From an uncultured Planctomycetota bacterium (GTDB lineage: Bacteria; Planctomycetota; UBA1135; GCA-002686595): DNA of 64,000 bases. Both the position numbers and the translations under genes were made by a program. How positions within the stretch are numbered: the first letter of the stretch is position 1; each line of letters starts with the position of its first letter. Shown here in pieces: positions 53,397 through 60,390 of this stretch. The notes below the pieces were generated by a model, which saw only the letters and a program-made list of their open reading frames with translations, did no database searches and was not told the origin of the DNA. The stretch covers positions 1 to 64,000 of the forward strand of contig CAIYPP010000001.1 in the NCBI GenBank assembly GCA_903928115.1, written 5' to 3'.

Positions 53397-54548
53397 TCAG
53401 AAGACATGCCGGAGCTTGGGCTCGTCCTTTTCGGGCTCCAGCGACTTCTTGTAGGCGAGCAGCGTGTGCTTCGCGCACTCGCGCCACGTGAACTTGCGCG
53501 CCTGAGCGCGCCCGCGCGTGCGCAGCTCGTCCGCGATGTCCGGCTCCATCAGCACGCGTCGCGCGGCTTCGAAGATGCGCTCGGGATCCGTCGGCTCGAC
53601 CAAGAACGCCGCGTCCCCGCACACCTCGGGCAACGATGTCACGCAGCTCGACACGACGGGCGCGCCGCACGCCATCGCCTCGAGCGGCGGGAGTCCGAAG
53701 CCTTCGTTGAGGCTCGCGAAGAGGAAGCAGTCGGCCTGCGCGTAGAGCCGCGGCAGGTCTGCCTCGGGTGCGTCGACGATCCACTGCACGCGGTCGCGCG
53801 CAGGCGAGCGCTCGAGGGCGCGCGCGAACTGTTCCCACTCGTAGCCGCGCGGGCCGGCGACGACCCAGCGATGGGGGAGGCCTTCCCGCACGAGCAGCTC
53901 GAAAGCCTGCAGCATGCGCAGGTGGTTCTTGCGCGGGTCGACGCGCGCGACGGTGAGCACGTAGGGCTCCTTCGCGCGACCGAAGCCTTCGGGCGGCAGG
54001 TCGCGAGCGATGTGATCGCAGCCGAGCTCGGTCACGGCGACGCGCGCCGGATGTGCGCCGAGCGCCATCACGACCTCGGCGCCGACGTACTGGCTCGGCA
54101 CGAGGATTCGCTTCGCGCGCTGAACCTGCTGCTTCGCCGCTTCGGTCATGCGCGCGGCGACAGCCGGGTCGAGATACCCCGAGTCGGGAATCATGTAGAT
54201 GCAATCGAAGATCGTCGCGACCTCAGTCGCGCGCCGGACGTCGAGCAGGTTCGGCTGCGTGTGGTGGTACACGTCGGCGCCGCCGACCAAGTCGTCGACG
54301 CCCTTGCCGAGCTTGCGCAGCATCCACGGCAGCCACCGCGACGGGAGGCGCATGCGGACGAGCTCGGCGCGCGAGCGCGCGATGCCGAGCTCCGCGCGCG
54401 AGAAGCGCATCGCCGCGGCCGTGTAACCGAAGAGGCCGAGATCGGAGTCGAAGCCGAGCTCGACGAAGCCGCGCACGAGCTCGCGGGTGTAGCGGCCGAT
54501 GCCCTCGCGGTTTTGCAGGGCGGGGCGGTAGTCGAGTCCGACGCGCAT
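53397..54548 (-). CDS. Glycosyltransferase, group 1 (mannosyltransferase-like)
   Basis: GT-B glycosyltransferase of 383 aa. It opens with LDYRPALQNREGIGRYTRELV and has VLTVARVDPRKNHLRMLQAFELL, then NEGFGLPPLEAMACGAPVVSSC with the donor-site Glu pair and SLPEVCGDAAFLVEPTD, all typical for WbaZ-type mannosyl- or galactosyltransferases of O-antigen or exopolysaccharide. It is the last gene of the minus-strand run beginning with kamA and lies 9 bases downstream of the flippase. The two look like a polysaccharide unit and could be incidental neighbours of the kamA genes. Confidence 0.87.
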   Translation of the reverse strand: MRVGLDYRPALQNREGIGRYTRELVRGFVELGFDSDLGLFGYTAAAMRFSRAELGIARSRAELVRMRLPSRWLPWMLRKLGKGVDDLVGGADVYHHTQPNLLDVRRATEVATIFDCIYMIPDSGYLDPAVAARMTEAAKQQVQRAKRILVPSQYVGAEVVMALGAHPARVAVTELGCDHIARDLPPEGFGRAKEPYVLTVARVDPRKNHLRMLQAFELLVREGLPHRWVVAGPRGYEWEQFARALERSPARDRVQWIVDAPEADLPRLYAQADCFLFASLNEGFGLPPLEAMACGAPVVSSCVTSLPEVCGDAAFLVEPTDPERIFEAARRVLMEPDIADELRTRGRAQARKFTWRECAKHTLLAYKKSLEPEKDEPKLRHVF

Positions 54549-54557
54549 GGAGCGCTC

Positions 54558-55883
54558 TCAATAGCCCATCGCGACCGCGGATGACAGCCCCGCGCCGAGC
54601 GCGAAGCCGAGCGGTCCGCCGAGCCAGCGCCACGCAGGTCCGAGCGAGATGCCCGCCCGCGTGACGACCCAAGCACCGGCCAGCGCGACGAATGCCTCGG
54701 TGATGAATGTGGTGGCTGCGGCGCCCGCGATCCCGTGCGTCGGAACGGCCCAGAAGTTCAGCGCGACGTTGAGCACGACTCCGAACAAGGCGATCCACAA
54801 GCTCTCGACGTTGCGGCCGAGCGCGACGAGCGCAGTCATCAGGATCGCGCCAGCGTAGATCGCGGTGGTCGCGCCGAGGAGCCACTGCAGGCTTGCCGCG
54901 GCAGGCCGGAACTCTTCTCGCAGGAGGGCGAGGATCGCGCCGCTCCAAGGCGCCGCGAGTCCGCAGGCGAGGCCCGCACCCGCGAACAGCGGCGGGCCGA
55001 CGCGCGCGAGCGCGGGGCCGAGCTCGCCCTCGATGTGGCGCCGCCGTAGCCAAGGAAGCATCGTCAGCGTCGCGTACTGCGCGAGCATGATCGACCAGCT
55101 CATGACGCGCACCGCGACGTTGTAGTGACCGAGCGGCTCGAGTCCGCAGTACTCGCGCACGAACAGGTTGTCGACGTAGAAGTACGTCTGCGCGCAGAGC
55201 GCCGAGATGCCGAGCGGCAGCGCCTCGCGGAAGAACCCCGGCTCAGGTTCTTGGCTCGCTGTACGTGCGGGCAAGTGGCTTCGTGACGCGAGGTGCAGCA
55301 GCACGTTGCCGAGCGTGCTCCCGAGCGCGACGCCGATCAGGTACAGCGCGGGTCGATCGACGCCGAAAGAACAGAGCACGGCGACGTTGCCGAGGCTCAC
55401 CGCTGCGGAGATCGCGCGCACCAGGACGGGAACGCGCCACGCGAGCTCGTTGCGCGCGGGAATCGTCGACAGCTCGAGGGCGTGCGTCACGGGATAGAGC
55501 GACGCGAGCACGATCCATGCGCCGTCGGGCTCCTCGGCCCACGCGACGAACGCGGCGCACAGCGCGACTCCCGCGAGCCCGGCACGCACGCGAATGCGCC
55601 GCGCAGCCGCGAGCACGCTGCCCATGCGATCGGGGCTCGCCGCCGTGCGCTGCACCGCGACCTGACCGGTGCCGAGGTTCGCCAAGCTGTCGAGCCACGC
55701 GAACAGCGCGATGTAGAACGTGAAGCGCCCGAACCCCGCGGAGTCGAGCTTCTCGCTCGCGAGGTACAGGATGGCGAGCGTGCACGCCGCGCCCCAGAGG
55801 CGGCCCAGCACCTGCAGTGCCGTTCCGCGCCACACGGCGCCCGGCACCTGCCCTCCCGACTCGCGTTCCTGCTGCGGTTTCAT
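54558..55883 (-). CDS. Wzx/MATE-like polysaccharide flippase
   Basis: Membrane protein of 441 aa with about twelve to fourteen hydrophobic helices, resembling polysaccharide-biosynthesis flippases of the MOP superfamily. Characteristic are the opening LGRLWGAACTLAILYLASEKLDSAGFGRFTFYIALF and the later ALCAQTYFYVDNLFVREYCGLEPLGHYNVAVR. Such proteins move lipid-linked sugar units from the cytosolic to the periplasmic face. It lies between the YkgJ-like protein (33 bases) and the glycosyltransferase (9 bases), in the same operon-like run. What it transports is unknown; a product of the upstream kamA cluster is a possibility. Confidence 0.85.
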   Translation of the reverse strand: MKPQQERESGGQVPGAVWRGTALQVLGRLWGAACTLAILYLASEKLDSAGFGRFTFYIALFAWLDSLANLGTGQVAVQRTAASPDRMGSVLAAARRIRVRAGLAGVALCAAFVAWAEEPDGAWIVLASLYPVTHALELSTIPARNELAWRVPVLVRAISAAVSLGNVAVLCSFGVDRPALYLIGVALGSTLGNVLLHLASRSHLPARTASQEPEPGFFREALPLGISALCAQTYFYVDNLFVREYCGLEPLGHYNVAVRVMSWSIMLAQYATLTMLPWLRRRHIEGELGPALARVGPPLFAGAGLACGLAAPWSGAILALLREEFRPAAASLQWLLGATTAIYAGAILMTALVALGRNVESLWIALFGVVLNVALNFWAVPTHGIAGAAATTFITEAFVALAGAWVVTRAGISLGPAWRWLGGPLGFALGAGLSSAVAMGY

Positions 55884-55916: not shown

Positions 55917-56537
55917 CTACTTGCGGCTCGCGCGCTTCTTCGCCGGCTTGCGCGCGGCCTTGGCGGCCTTCTTCTTGCGCGGCTTGGGCACCGAGCCCCC
56001 GCGCCATCCTTCCGCGCCGGAGTCGAGGCGCGCGGCGAACTCGAGCTCGCCTTGCATGGTCGAGACCGCGGGCTTCTTCGACTCCTTCGGGTTGAGGCAG
56101 AAGAGATCCCACGCCTCGCCGTGGAGCTTCCATTGGCGCACGTACCAGCTGTCGTCGTCCCGGCGATCGAGCGGGAACACCGCGCACGCCCACGGCTTGT
56201 ACTTGAAGCGATCGCCTTCCTTGGCGCCGACCTTGTGCAGCACGCAGCCTTGGTTCTCGAACACGCACCAGCCCTCGGACACGGCCATCATCGAGAGGCC
56301 ATGCTTCTTGCGGCGCGTCATGAAGCCCTCCGATTCGATCCGCTTGCGCGCCTTCTCGCGCACGTGCGGGAGGAACTTCGCGAGGTTCTCCTCGATCCGG
56401 CGGACTTCGCCGGGCTCGAGCGGCGGGCGCCCCTGCTTGCAGCACGAGCCGCCGCAGGTGGGATAGACGCAGTCGAAGGTCGCCGTGGCGGCGTTCTCGA
56501 CGAGGATCGGGAGCGTGGGGAGGGCCTTCGAGGTCAC
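55917..56537 (-). CDS. YkgJ-type Cys-cluster protein with a lysine-rich tail
   Basis: Protein of 206 aa of the YkgJ/DUF3109 type. The Cys cluster DCVYPTCGGSCCKQG near the N-terminus and later Cys residues in GWCVFENQGCVLHK, KPWACAVFP and FCLNPK form a presumed metal site (zinc or iron). It ends in a Lys/Ala-rich tail (PKPRKKKAAKAARKPAKK) like histone H1 C-termini. The start is GTG at 56537 inside the acetyltransferase stop (GTGA). The family's biochemical role is not known; in this run its coupling with an acetyltransferase suggests a related pathway. Confidence 0.8.
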   Translation of the reverse strand: MTSKALPTLPILVENAATATFDCVYPTCGGSCCKQGRPPLEPGEVRRIEENLAKFLPHVREKARKRIESEGFMTRRKKHGLSMMAVSEGWCVFENQGCVLHKVGAKEGDRFKYKPWACAVFPLDRRDDDSWYVRQWKLHGEAWDLFCLNPKESKKPAVSTMQGELEFAARLDSGAEGWRGGSVPKPRKKKAAKAARKPAKKRASRK

Positions 56538-57004
56538 AGTCGCACCATGTAGACGAGCTTGTCGTCGCCGAGTCGGTAGAAGTCGGGGTAGCGGGCGAGG
56601 AGCGTGCAGCCGCAGCGCTCGTAGAACGCGCGTTGCGCAGCGTACTCGGGCTTGCCGGATGTTTCGATGATCACGAGCCGTCCAGCGCGCGCACGCACAT
56701 CGCGCACGACGTGCTCCAAGAGCACGCGACCGAGACCGCGGCCCTGCTCTCTGGCCGCCACCACGATCCAGTACAGGTCGTAGGCGCCGTCGGAGAGTGG
56801 GGTGAGCCCCCAGCACGCGTAGCCCACGGGAAGGTCGTTCTCGTCGACGGCGACCGTGAACAGATATCCCGAGCGCGGGTTCGTCCCGGCGTCGATCAGC
56901 TCGAGCGCGACTTCGACCTCGTCCTCGCGGAAGGCGTTCGTCGAGCGCACCGCACGCTCCAGCGCCGCGCGATCGCTCGCGCGCAGCTCACGTAGCTTGG
57001 CCAT
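56534..57004 (-). CDS. GNAT-family N-acetyltransferase
   Basis: Protein of 156 aa with the GNAT fold: acetyl-CoA-binding loop AREQGRGLGRVLLEHVV and the late strand/helix YAAQRAFYERCGCTLLARYPDFYR. It overlaps the upstream ATP-grasp gene by 17 bases and the downstream YkgJ-type gene by 4, so it is translated with them. In the known N-acetyl-beta-lysine osmolyte pathway a GNAT enzyme (AblB) acts after lysine 2,3-aminomutase (AblA), which makes a beta-lysine-type substrate plausible. Alternatively it modifies a peptide product of the ATP-grasp enzymes. Confidence 0.87.
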   Translation of the reverse strand: MAKLRELRASDRAALERAVRSTNAFREDEVEVALELIDAGTNPRSGYLFTVAVDENDLPVGYACWGLTPLSDGAYDLYWIVVAAREQGRGLGRVLLEHVVRDVRARAGRLVIIETSGKPEYAAQRAFYERCGCTLLARYPDFYRLGDDKLVYMVRL

Positions 57005-58001
57005 GGCGTGCGAGCGCGCTCGCGACGACGCGCTCGATGAGGTCGGGGTAGGAGAGCCCCGCGCGCTCGGCGGCGAGGTGGAAGCCCGCGCCCTGCGAGA
57101 GGTCGGGGTTGGGGTTGACGTCGATCACGAACGGCTCACCGCGCTCGTCGAGCCGCAGATCGACGCGTGCGTAGTCGCGTAGCTCGAGCGTCTCGAACGC
57201 GCCGCGGGCGACCGCCTCGATGCGCGTGCGCTGCGCGGGAGTAAGGTCGCGTGCCGCGACCACCTTGGTGAGGTCCCAGTCGCGGCTTCCTTCGATCCAC
57301 TTGCCGGCGTACGTGACCAAGTGCGGCTCGTCGGGGGAGAAACCCGAGTAGTCGATCTCGGAGAGGGGCAGCACCTCGACGCCGCGCGCACCGCCGAGCA
57401 GCGCGACGTTGAGCTCGCGTGCGGGGATGTACTCTTCGACGAGCGCGGGCTGGGCGTAGGTCTCGATCAGCTTGCGGGCCTGTCGGCGCAGCGCAGCCTC
57501 GTCGCGCACGACCGAGTCCATCGTGATGCCGTGGCTCGCGTCTTCGCGCGCGGGCTTCACCATCAGCGGGAAGCGCAGGTTCGTGACGCTCTCGTCGCCG
57601 CGCGCGAGCACCGTTCCGTGCGGCACGGGCAGCCCGGCCGCTGCGAGCACCGCCTTCGTGACGGGTTTTTCCATGCACAGCGCCATCGCGCGCGGCCCCG
57701 AGCCCGTGTAGCGCACGCCGTGCAGCTCGTAGAGCCACGCCATCGCCTGCTCGAGCCGCGAGTCTCCGCCGATGCCTTCGACGAGATTGAAGACCAGCTC
57801 GCTGCGCAGCTCGGCCACCGCGCGCAGCACGGCGTCGCGCGCCGGGGGCAGTCCTTCGACCTGCACCGCGTGCCCGCGGCTCGCGAGCGCCTCGCCGATG
57901 TTGCGCGCGCAGTCGCGGACGGCGAGCACCGCGATCGCGTCCTGCTCCGAGCCGTGCGCGAGCGTCGCGTCGTCGTTGTAGAGGACCGTGAGGCTCGCCA
58001 T
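56988..58001 (-). CDS. ATP-grasp ligase (D-Ala-D-Ala ligase-like), second copy
   Basis: Protein of 337 aa with the ATP-grasp fold of D-alanine-D-alanine ligase-type amino-acid ligases. Visible are the hinge Lys in PLMVKPAREDASHGITMDS, the adenine-side ALVEEYIPARELNVALLGG and the metal site RVDLRLDERG ... VIDVNPNPDL (Asp and Asn, where Ddl has E-x-N). It would form an amide between two amino acids with ATP hydrolysis. It is 7 bases downstream of its paralogue and 17 bases overlapping with the GNAT gene. It is not Ddl itself: the serine/glycine-loop regions are replaced. Confidence 0.85.
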   Translation of the reverse strand: MASLTVLYNDDATLAHGSEQDAIAVLAVRDCARNIGEALASRGHAVQVEGLPPARDAVLRAVAELRSELVFNLVEGIGGDSRLEQAMAWLYELHGVRYTGSGPRAMALCMEKPVTKAVLAAAGLPVPHGTVLARGDESVTNLRFPLMVKPAREDASHGITMDSVVRDEAALRRQARKLIETYAQPALVEEYIPARELNVALLGGARGVEVLPLSEIDYSGFSPDEPHLVTYAGKWIEGSRDWDLTKVVAARDLTPAQRTRIEAVARGAFETLELRDYARVDLRLDERGEPFVIDVNPNPDLSQGAGFHLAAERAGLSYPDLIERVVASALARHGQAT

Positions 58002-58008
58002 GGCACGC

Positions 58009-59022
58009 TCAAGCGAGCTTCAGCCGCGCGCAGGCCTCGTCGAGGATCGCGCCGATCATCGTGTCGTAGTTTCCGCCGAGGCGGTCCCAGAGGATCGAGA
58101 GGTCGCTCCAGCCCGGCGCGACGCCCGGCAGCGGGTTGCACTCGATGAACTTGGGCGTCCCCCGCGCGTCGCAGCGCACGTCGATGCGCGACACGTCGCG
58201 GCAGCCGAGCGCACGGTACGCGTCGAGCGCGACCTTCTCGACGCGCTCGACTTCCTCGCGCGGTCGCTGCGGCGGCACGCGATAGGCGATCTCGTCGGCC
58301 CAGTTGGGGTTGCGCTTCACCTCGAGCGAGTAGACGAACTGCTCGCGCGGGACGAGCAGCGGCTCGACTTCCATCGTGCCGATCGTGCGCGCACTCGCAC
58401 CCTGCCCGCGCACTCCGACCGTGAACTCTGCGCCGCCGCAGAACTCCTCGACGAGCACGGGCTCGCGATAGTCTCCGAGCAACTGCCCGACGCGCTCTTC
58501 GAGCTCCGCGCGGTCGCCGATGCGCGAGCGACGGCGGATCCCCATGCTCGAACCTTCGAACAGGGGCTTCGCGAACAGCGGGAACGGCAGCGCGATGCGC
58601 GCGAGGTCCTCGAGGCGCTCGACCACGACGAACTCCGGCGTCGGCACGCCGCAGGACGCGACCACGCGCTTCGCCATCGCCTTGTCGAGCGTGACGGCCA
58701 TCGTCAGCGGGTCGGAGTGCGTGCACGGCACGCCGAGCATCTCGCACACCGCCGGCACGTGCGCCTCGCGCGAGCGCGAGCCGTGGCCTTCGGCGATGTT
58801 GAACACGAGGTCGACGCGCTCGCGCAGGAGGTTCTCGGCGAAGCGTCGGCCGCCGCCGAGCCGCGTCACGCGGTGCCCTCGCGCCGTGAGCACGCGCTCG
58901 ATCGCGGCGACAGTCGCGTCCGAGTCGTACTCTTCGAGCAGATCGTCCGGCCCATCGACGCGCGGAACCGCGGACTTCGCGAGGAAGTCCGCCTTCAGGT
59001 CGAAGGCGATGCCGATGTGCAT
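58009..59022 (-). CDS. ATP-grasp ligase (D-Ala-D-Ala ligase-like), first copy
   Basis: Paralogue of identical length (337 aa) to the next gene. ATP-grasp features: FPLFAKPLFEGSSMGIRRRSRI (Lys for ATP phosphates, flexible loop), PVLVEEFCGGAEFTVGV and the metal site RIDVRCDARGTPKFIECNPLPGV with Glu and Asn as in Ddl. The N-terminal domain has VDLVFNIAEGHGSRSREAHVPAVCEMLGVPCTHSDP, matching the Ddl N-terminal Glu-containing substrate-loop. It lies 30 bases after kamA. Two non-identical ligases suggest two consecutive amide bonds or a heterodimer. Confidence 0.86.
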   Translation of the reverse strand: MHIGIAFDLKADFLAKSAVPRVDGPDDLLEEYDSDATVAAIERVLTARGHRVTRLGGGRRFAENLLRERVDLVFNIAEGHGSRSREAHVPAVCEMLGVPCTHSDPLTMAVTLDKAMAKRVVASCGVPTPEFVVVERLEDLARIALPFPLFAKPLFEGSSMGIRRRSRIGDRAELEERVGQLLGDYREPVLVEEFCGGAEFTVGVRGQGASARTIGTMEVEPLLVPREQFVYSLEVKRNPNWADEIAYRVPPQRPREEVERVEKVALDAYRALGCRDVSRIDVRCDARGTPKFIECNPLPGVAPGWSDLSILWDRLGGNYDTMIGAILDEACARLKLA

Positions 59023-59052
59023 GGAGCGCGCAGCGGGCGGGAGTCGCGCGGT

Positions 59053-60390
59053 CTACTTCTTCTCGCGCCGCGCGGTGGCGCCCTTGCGCACCCAGCGGCT
59101 CTTGCCGACGACCGGCGGCTTCACTTCGGCGCCGTTCACGGGCTCTTCCGCGGGCTTCTCCGGCTCGGCCACGCGCGGTGCCGGCGGACGGATCTCGTCG
59201 CGCAGGTAGCCGGGCTCCAAGTACTCGTAGATCTTGTCTTGGAAGTTGCGCAGCACCGCGCGGCCCTTGTGCTCGTCGTAGCGCAGCAGGTACTGCGGCT
59301 GGACCGGGATCTTGCCGCCGCCGCCCGGCGCGTCGACCACGTAGGTCGGAATCGCCAAGCCGGAGGTGTGACCGCGCAGGCCCTCGATGATCTCGATGCC
59401 CTTGGAGATGGGCGTGCGGAAGTGCTCCGCGCCGCGCACGGGGTCGCACTGGTAGAGGTAGTACGGGCGCACGCGCATGCGCATCAGGCCTTGGCACAGG
59501 CCCTTGATCGTCTCGACCGAGTCGTTGACGCCCTTCAGGAGCACGGCCTGGTTGTTGAGCGGGATGCCCGCGCGCGAGAGCTTGTCGCAGGCGCGCGCGG
59601 CCTCGGGGGTGAGCTCGCGCGGGTGGTTGAAGTGCACGTTGACCCACAGCGGGTGGTAGCGCTGCAGCATCTCGACGAGCTCGTCGTCGATGCGCTGCGG
59701 CAAGGCCACGGGCACGCGGCTTCCGATGCGAATGATCTCGAGGTGCGGGATCGCGCGCAGCTTCGAGAGGATCGACTCGAGCTTCTGCGTCGAGTAGTTG
59801 AGCGGGTCTCCGCCCGACACGACCACGTCGCGCACCTGCGGCGTGCGCGCGATGTAGTCGACCATGCGGTCGATCTCGACCTCCGGCGTCGCGCCGTCGT
59901 ACATGGTCCGCTTGCGCGTGCAGTAGCGGCAGTAGATGGCGCAGTTGTTCGAGATCACCATCAGCACGCGGTCGGGGTAGCGGTGCGTGATGCCCGGCAC
60001 CGGCGAGAACTTCTCCTCACCGAGCGGGTCTTCCTCGCCGACGGCGCGGAAGTAGTACTCGTCCGAGAGCGGCACGACCTGACGCAGGATCGGGTCGGCC
60101 TCGTCGTCCGCGTCGATCAGCGACAGGTAGTAGGGCGTGATGCCCATGCGGAAGTCCGACAGCACTTCCTTGCGCAGTCCCAGCTCGTGCGGCGGGATGG
60201 GCAGCTTCGCGGCGAGCTCGTCGAGCGTCGTCACACGGTTCTTGAACTGCCACTTCCAGTCGTTCCACTCGGCGTCGGTGACGCCGGGATAGAAAAACGC
60301 GCGGCCCGTACGGCGGCCGTTGTGCGTAGCTGGCGGGACGTCCGGAGTCGTCGCAGCGCGCTGCGCTGCGGTGTCGACGGAGTCAGGCAT
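59053..60390 (-). CDS. kamA: Lysine 2,3-aminomutase (radical SAM, PLP)
   Basis: Radical-SAM enzyme of 445 aa that converts L-lysine to L-beta-lysine. The [4Fe-4S] ligands are Cys150, Cys154 and Cys157 (CAIYCRYC). The PLP lysine is Lys360 in APGGGGK, and the substrate-carboxylate/amine residues of clostridial KamA are kept: Asp316 in YQCDPVRGAEHFRTP and Asp353 in VVDAPGGGG. This favours free-lysine use rather than EpmB-type modification of elongation factor P. The N-terminal 30 and C-terminal 50 residues (basic SRWVRKGATARREKK) are extra relative to the clostridial enzyme. First gene of a tight minus-strand run. Confidence 0.93.
   Translation of the reverse strand: MPDSVDTAAQRAATTPDVPPATHNGRRTGRAFFYPGVTDAEWNDWKWQFKNRVTTLDELAAKLPIPPHELGLRKEVLSDFRMGITPYYLSLIDADDEADPILRQVVPLSDEYYFRAVGEEDPLGEEKFSPVPGITHRYPDRVLMVISNNCAIYCRYCTRKRTMYDGATPEVEIDRMVDYIARTPQVRDVVVSGGDPLNYSTQKLESILSKLRAIPHLEIIRIGSRVPVALPQRIDDELVEMLQRYHPLWVNVHFNHPRELTPEAARACDKLSRAGIPLNNQAVLLKGVNDSVETIKGLCQGLMRMRVRPYYLYQCDPVRGAEHFRTPISKGIEIIEGLRGHTSGLAIPTYVVDAPGGGGKIPVQPQYLLRYDEHKGRAVLRNFQDKIYEYLEPGYLRDEIRPPAPRVAEPEKPAEEPVNGAEVKPPVVGKSRWVRKGATARREKK

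Follow-up and report, generated by a model that had tools for sequence, protein, structure and literature searches.

What does a bacterium make with a lysine 2,3-aminomutase gene that is followed at once by two ATP-grasp ligase genes and an acetyltransferase gene? The question is raised by a 64,000-nucleotide stretch of DNA, here called the window, from contig CAIYPP010000001.1 (positions 1 to 64,000, forward strand; GenBank assembly GCA_903928115.1) of an uncultured Planctomycetota bacterium, whose metagenome-assembled genome (MAG) comprises 4.3 Mb in 160 contigs and is 88% complete. An earlier reading of the window (the original prediction) had proposed that beta-lysine formed by the aminomutase, KamA, is joined to other amino acids by the ligases and acetylated, to give a small beta-peptide or a modified cell-wall or osmolyte compound. 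Our analysis indicates that this cassette probably directs biosynthesis of a small, N-acetylated, beta-lysine-containing, peptide-like amide; gene order, co-occurrence, altered D-Ala contacts in the ligases and the absence of AblB and Kce support that proposal in so far as it couples beta-lysine synthesis to two ligases that form amides and to an acetyltransferase, and its cell-wall part found no support. The genes are, in reading order:

59053..60390, minus strand: KamA, radical S-adenosylmethionine lysine 2,3-aminomutase-like protein (445 amino acids; TIGR00238 over cut-off; matches 2a5h)
58009..59022, minus strand: ligase 1, putative amide ligase of the ATP-grasp class with a Ddl fold (337 amino acids; PF07478)
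56988..58001, minus strand: ligase 2, a ligase 1 paralogue, likewise a putative Ddl-fold ATP-grasp amide ligase (337 amino acids; PF07478)
56534..57004, minus strand: GNAT N-acetyltransferase (156 amino acids; PF00583; 2r7h homologue)
55917..56537, minus strand: YkgJ/DUF3109-type Cys-cluster protein (206 amino acids, GTG start; PF11307, 6.5e-14)

The coordinates and spacings originally given for these five genes match the open reading frames as recomputed (successive gaps of 30, 7, -17 and -4 bases), and the acetyltransferase and Cys-cluster assignments hold (PF00583; PF11307). All five frames are intact, with a coding-like third-position GC of 0.85–0.94.

The cassette is conserved across phyla

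Named genomes were scanned with an alignment of ligase 1, which gave 80 loci (L-numbers below are locus labels). KamA lies directly upstream of ligase 1 in 69 of the 79 assessable loci, ligase 2 downstream of ligase 1 in 64 of 74, and a GNAT gene is part of the cassette in 49 of 68; all four genes stand in the order KamA-ligase 1-ligase 2-GNAT in 39 of the 60 loci that reach far enough. Genomes of at least eight phyla show this complete order (Planctomycetota, Chloroflexota, Myxococcota, Acidobacteriota, Pseudomonadota, Thermodesulfobacteriota, Bacteroidota and Ignavibacteriota), as does Ca. Ozemobacter, and the pair of KamA and ligase 1 is found additionally in Cyanobacteriota, Bacillota, Lentisphaerota and Fidelibacterota. 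Cultured carriers include Pseudodesulfovibrio pelocollis SB368, Desulfopila sp. IMCC35006 and Rhizomicrobium electricum DSM 21034. Among 61 near genomes the order, where present, holds to about 40% identity. Such recurrence is far beyond chance, and the order, whose conservation outside this strain the original prediction had left to be checked, is kept in many phyla. Co-occurrence is also seen independently of linkage: in a set of 392 Planctomycetota genomes, KamA is present in 66 of the 67 with a strong ligase 1 versus 116 of the 325 others (Fisher p 2e-24). Flanking genes other than those of the cassette show no wide recurrence across the 80 loci, and where ligase 2 or KamA is missing, annotation of the neighbours gave unrelated genes only.

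Two departures from the compact arrangement were seen. In family f39 (L171, L173, L179, L185) KamA and ligase 1 lie on different contigs and co-occur in all ten genomes seen, so the cassette may be split there. The cultured myxobacteria of the genus Nannocystis (L059, L063) have tandem homologues of ligase 1 and ligase 2 and no KamA within 9 kb.

KamA keeps the residues of lysine-specific aminomutases

The closest solved relative of KamA is the lysine 2,3-aminomutase 2a5h (E=2e-139). The residues singled out in the original prediction are all present and have equivalents in 2a5h: the iron-sulfur cysteines C150, C154 and C157 (CxxxCxxC), the pyridoxal phosphate lysine K360, and the lysine side-chain aspartates D316 and D353. 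At a constant alignment offset D316, D353 and K360 correspond to 2a5h chain positions 293, 330 and 337, and their columns are invariant across the aligned cassette KamAs. KamA, of which the MAG holds one copy, is predicted from these sequence features to synthesize (S)-beta-lysine from L-lysine. Its best equivalog is the AblA model TIGR03820, with 497.2 bits under a cut-off of 525.4, and four other ligase-linked cassette KamAs score 453–498 bits; control AblAs encoded near AblB in the same phylum reach 686 and 700 bits, and in a tree the two AblB-linked AblAs group together, in a part separate from the cassette KamAs and with none of them inside the group.

At their C-terminus the KamAs of the planctomycete clade (L009-L023, L039-L045 and others) have a low-complexity linker and, after it, a conserved motif, [VI]VGKSxW[VA]H[RK]; the corresponding C-terminus in the window is encoded at 59053-59130, and the window's closest relatives have the variant VR[KR]. 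Cassette KamAs of the Myxococcota type carry a different conserved tail, NERMARRKRRCESxSPTT. A conserved tail of this kind is possibly a docking peptide to a pathway partner.

The ligases have the Ddl fold and altered D-Ala contacts

The two ligases are paralogues of about 32% identity, and the Ddl fold is predicted for both (pLDDT, the predicted local distance difference test, of 92 for ligase 1 and 90 for ligase 2), which bears out the original description of two paralogous enzymes resembling D-Ala-D-Ala ligase (PF07478). Structure and fold searches with these models confirmed the Ddl fold and revealed no substrate. The ligase 1 family occurs in many phyla, among named as well as Planctomycetota genomes.

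In E. coli DdlB, Glu15, Ser150, Tyr216 and Ser281 contact D-Ala. When aligned to DdlB (1iov), both ligases keep the ATP-grasp catalytic residues that they share with Ddl along with its fold; the contacts Ser150, Tyr216 and Ser281, on the other hand, are Ala, Trp and Ala in ligase 2, and in ligase 1 Tyr216 is replaced, the Ser281 region is altered by an insertion and Ser150 is mostly kept. The N-terminal part of DdlB that bears Glu15 is unalignable with either ligase, and the C-terminal loop of ligase 1 differs from that of DdlB (NPLPGxxP...D). Ligases 1 and 2 score about 117 and 120 bits against TIGR01205, roughly half the curated cut-off of 245.65, and 149 and 136 bits against PRK01372 (cut-off 243), whereas a separate Ddl candidate elsewhere in the MAG reaches 232.8 bits with TIGR01205, just under the cut-off. 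For ligase 1, every Ddl family model scores far below its threshold. The altered contacts, the low Ddl scores and the better Ddl in the same MAG together argue that the cassette ligases are amide ligases and not D-Ala ligases.

The acetyltransferase and an optional deacetylase fusion

The cassette GNAT is a homologue of PDB entry 2r7h (E=3e-37 with the protein, 4.5e-52 with the family profile), which was deposited as a putative D-alanine N-acetyltransferase of the GNAT family, a name that probably derives from its Ddl-like neighbours; a literature text search for 2R7H found, judged by titles, no functional study of that enzyme. A comparison of the GNAT with the AblB model gave no match at E 0.01.

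At 13 loci in several phyla, a GNAT-deacetylase (HDAC) fusion protein, about 595 amino acids long in all, is encoded directly inside or beside the cassette (L082:10956-12776, L084, L085, L087, L090, L096, L099, L109, L110, L113, L055, L058 and L092). Pfam detects its deacetylase half strongly and its GNAT half weakly. The deacetylase is closest to the acetylpolyamine amidohydrolase (APAH) structures 9gkz, 6phr and 3q9b, and its catalytic motifs are intact (RPPGHHAE, LDxDxHHGNG, GxDxxxxDPTG and EGGY); it differs from APAH enzymes in being fused to a GNAT and sited within a KamA-ligase cassette. The presence, next to genes for a beta-lysine pathway, of an enzyme that would deacetylate terminal alkyl amines is the strongest pointer to N6 as the probable site of acetylation, and to acetylation that can be transient. 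The 1.8-kb inserted gene had been considered as AsnB, a candidate rejected since it encodes the GNAT-HDAC fusion. The window's own cassette is without it.

Proposed pathway and alternatives

In the pathway that we propose, KamA would convert L-lysine to beta-lysine, and each Ddl-like ligase would activate a carboxylate as its acyl phosphate (ATP to ADP) and then join it to an amine. As each ligase would form one bond, one or two amide bonds to other amino acids are expected, and the product would be an acetylated beta-lysine dipeptide or tripeptide. The GNAT would acetylate a free amine of beta-lysine or of its peptide, most likely the terminal N6 as AblB does; in some lineages the GNAT-APAH fusion would strip or re-set the acetyl group, either as protection and deprotection or in turnover. 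None of the 80 loci shares with the others a recurring gene for an exporter, a receptor or resistance, and as the cassette has no recurring transporter partner, its product probably stays inside the cell. This logic resembles that of the N-acetylglutaminylglutamine amide (NAGGN) system (TIGR03103/TIGR03104), in which a GNAT plus ATP-grasp ligation gives an acetylated short peptide. The cassette differs in that no asparagine-synthase-like amidotransferase was seen, its ligases and GNAT are separate genes, and its presumed substrate is KamA-derived beta-lysine instead of glutamine; membership of the NAGGN system was rejected, as the match to the synthetase model TIGR03103 is partial and reaches 24.5 bits versus a cut-off of 569.

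The conjugative plasmid pTHIMO01 of Thioflavicoccus mobilis (L145) carries an ATP-grasp ligase gene together with a convergent KamA gene and genes for a diaminobutyrate aminotransferase, SbnA and an ornithine-cyclodeaminase-type protein. This cluster is likely a beta-lysine/diamino-acid peptide variant, whose partner amino acids may, to judge by its genes, be diaminopropionate and diaminobutyrate.

Other products can be envisaged. Secondary-metabolite pathways often include ATP-grasp ligases and KamA-type enzymes, and the cassette might make a secreted or conflict-related compound, such as a cationic beta-lysine peptide antibiotic (like the beta-lysine parts of streptothricin and tuberactinomycin) or a metallophore. 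The siderophore-type diaminopropionate genes of the conjugative Thioflavicoccus plasmid fit this idea, as does a betaproteobacterial contig (L052:4813-7008) in which ligase 1 is directly followed by the gene of an ABC transporter-type protein that contains a cyclic-nucleotide-binding domain, an exporter-like gene within the cassette that argues against retention of the product there. Recurring exporter, receptor or resistance genes are lacking, however, and the compact form of the cassette, with its spread over many phyla and the roughly congruent divergence of its partners, would be unusual for a weapon; we consider such a role unlikely. Among compatible solutes N-acetyl-beta-lysine is well established. 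Synthesis of N6-acetyl-beta-lysine as an osmolyte, with the ligases acting separately, has to be weighed because KamA and GNAT are in type the AblA/AblB pair: an aminomutase with lysine-specific residues and an acetyltransferase. AblA and AblB have been assigned to N-acetyl-beta-lysine in bacteria too (PMC3543383, PMC12776343). The cassette differs from AblA/AblB in its two ordered ligases, which this explanation leaves unaccounted for, in a GNAT outside the AblB family and in a KamA that scores under the AblA cut-off and lies outside the AblA clade; AblB (TIGR03827) has no match in the MAG, and across the phylum it was found in 4 of 199 genomes. We regard this explanation as improbable, in keeping with the original prediction, which had set the cluster apart from AblA/AblB and from lysine fermentation. 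On fermentation the kce part of that claim holds (Kce, of the BKACE family PF05853, has no match in the 88% complete MAG, with a control match in one genome), and KamD (PF09043) has none in the MAG and none in the control genomes as well. By record title, many loci derive from lake, groundwater, fen and soil samples, and apparently from digesters, so that a pure salt osmolyte role is not specially favoured.

The Ddl fold of both ligases would also suit modification of the cell wall, through a beta-lysine cross-bridge or an altered stem-peptide terminus. The D-Ala contacts are lost, however, the MAG has a better Ddl elsewhere, and the neighbours examined included no mur, fem or lipid II genes, so that this option of the original prediction appears highly improbable. 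EpmB is a relative of KamA, and EpmAB places beta-lysine on elongation factor P (EF-P), which raises the idea of beta-lysine tagging of that or another protein or translation factor. Such tagging would be very surprising here, as KamA scores 266.9 bits against the EpmB model TIGR03821 (cut-off 369.3), and no lysyl-tRNA-synthetase-like ligase was found among the recurring neighbours examined.

Several points besides the exporter-like gene at L052 weigh against the acetylated beta-lysine peptide that we prefer. For every cassette member the substrates and products are so far putative; with the cassette KamAs under the AblA cut-off, activity on free lysine is a prediction, and with a GNAT that is not AblB, acetylation at N6 is argued by analogy. 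Some KamA-ligase 1 pairs, for example in the cyanobacterial L067 and L098, stand without ligase 2 or GNAT, and such a two-gene form may yield a different compound. The 80 loci were chosen via ligase 1 and are mostly MAGs, a bias carried by the conservation counts, and the correlation of pairwise distances among KamA, ligase 1 and ligase 2 (Mantel r about 0.8 at 82 loci), which counts in favour of the proposal, is partly expected from shared ancestry.

Neighbouring genes

The YkgJ-type gene, counted as a fifth member in the original prediction, adjoins the core only in several planctomycete relatives and is a lineage-specific addition outside the conserved core. The match of its product to the CxxCxxCC family is below the family cut-off; the PF11307 (DUF3109) match stands. 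It is followed by:

54558..55883, minus strand: flippase-like Polysacc_synt protein (PF01943)
53397..54548, minus strand: GT4 glycosyltransferase (PF00534)

The flippase gene starts 33 bases after the YkgJ-type gene and the GT4 gene 9 bases after the flippase gene, and the same order is seen in four further genomes from the genus and at L040 and not in other relatives. The close spacing and kept order suggest that the three genes form one transcription unit in the genus and at L040. Six proteins matched no family among the PADLOC models at E 0.001, and an anti-phage defence system was rejected as an explanation. An RNA family scan of the window gave one sub-threshold match (isrL, 18.5 bits versus a cut-off of 35), and scans of eight related loci gave tRNAs only, with no riboswitch.

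Implications

In the open-access literature searched, no paper combines the terms "3-aminomutase" and "ATP-grasp", and no description of the cassette was found, which agrees with the original statement that no characterised pathway has this gene set. A 2009 survey of ATP-grasp gene neighbourhoods may contain an earlier prediction; Iyer, Abhiman, Burroughs and Aravind reportedly covered amidoligases in that year, with ATP-grasp, glutamine synthetase-like and acetyltransferase domains. The ingredients of the cassette are known, in kind those of small peptides made by ATP-grasp enzymes, and their combination appears to be undescribed.

A wider reading, which we hold to be possible rather than probable, is that the cassette makes a multi-phylum class of N-acetylated beta-lysine peptides, acetylated reversibly where the APAH fusion occurs, and that these are physiological metabolites on the scale of ectoine or NAGGN and not a strain-specific natural product. 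If the proposed pathway is correct, many bacterial phyla, with cultured sulfate reducers and an alphaproteobacterium among their members, would have in common a small molecule that has so far gone undescribed, and the roles of KamA would widen past osmolyte synthesis, fermentation and EF-P modification. It would also assign two unnamed ATP-grasp families for which D-Ala-D-Ala ligase is at present a likely annotation, and give a function to the solved orphan GNAT structure 2r7h.

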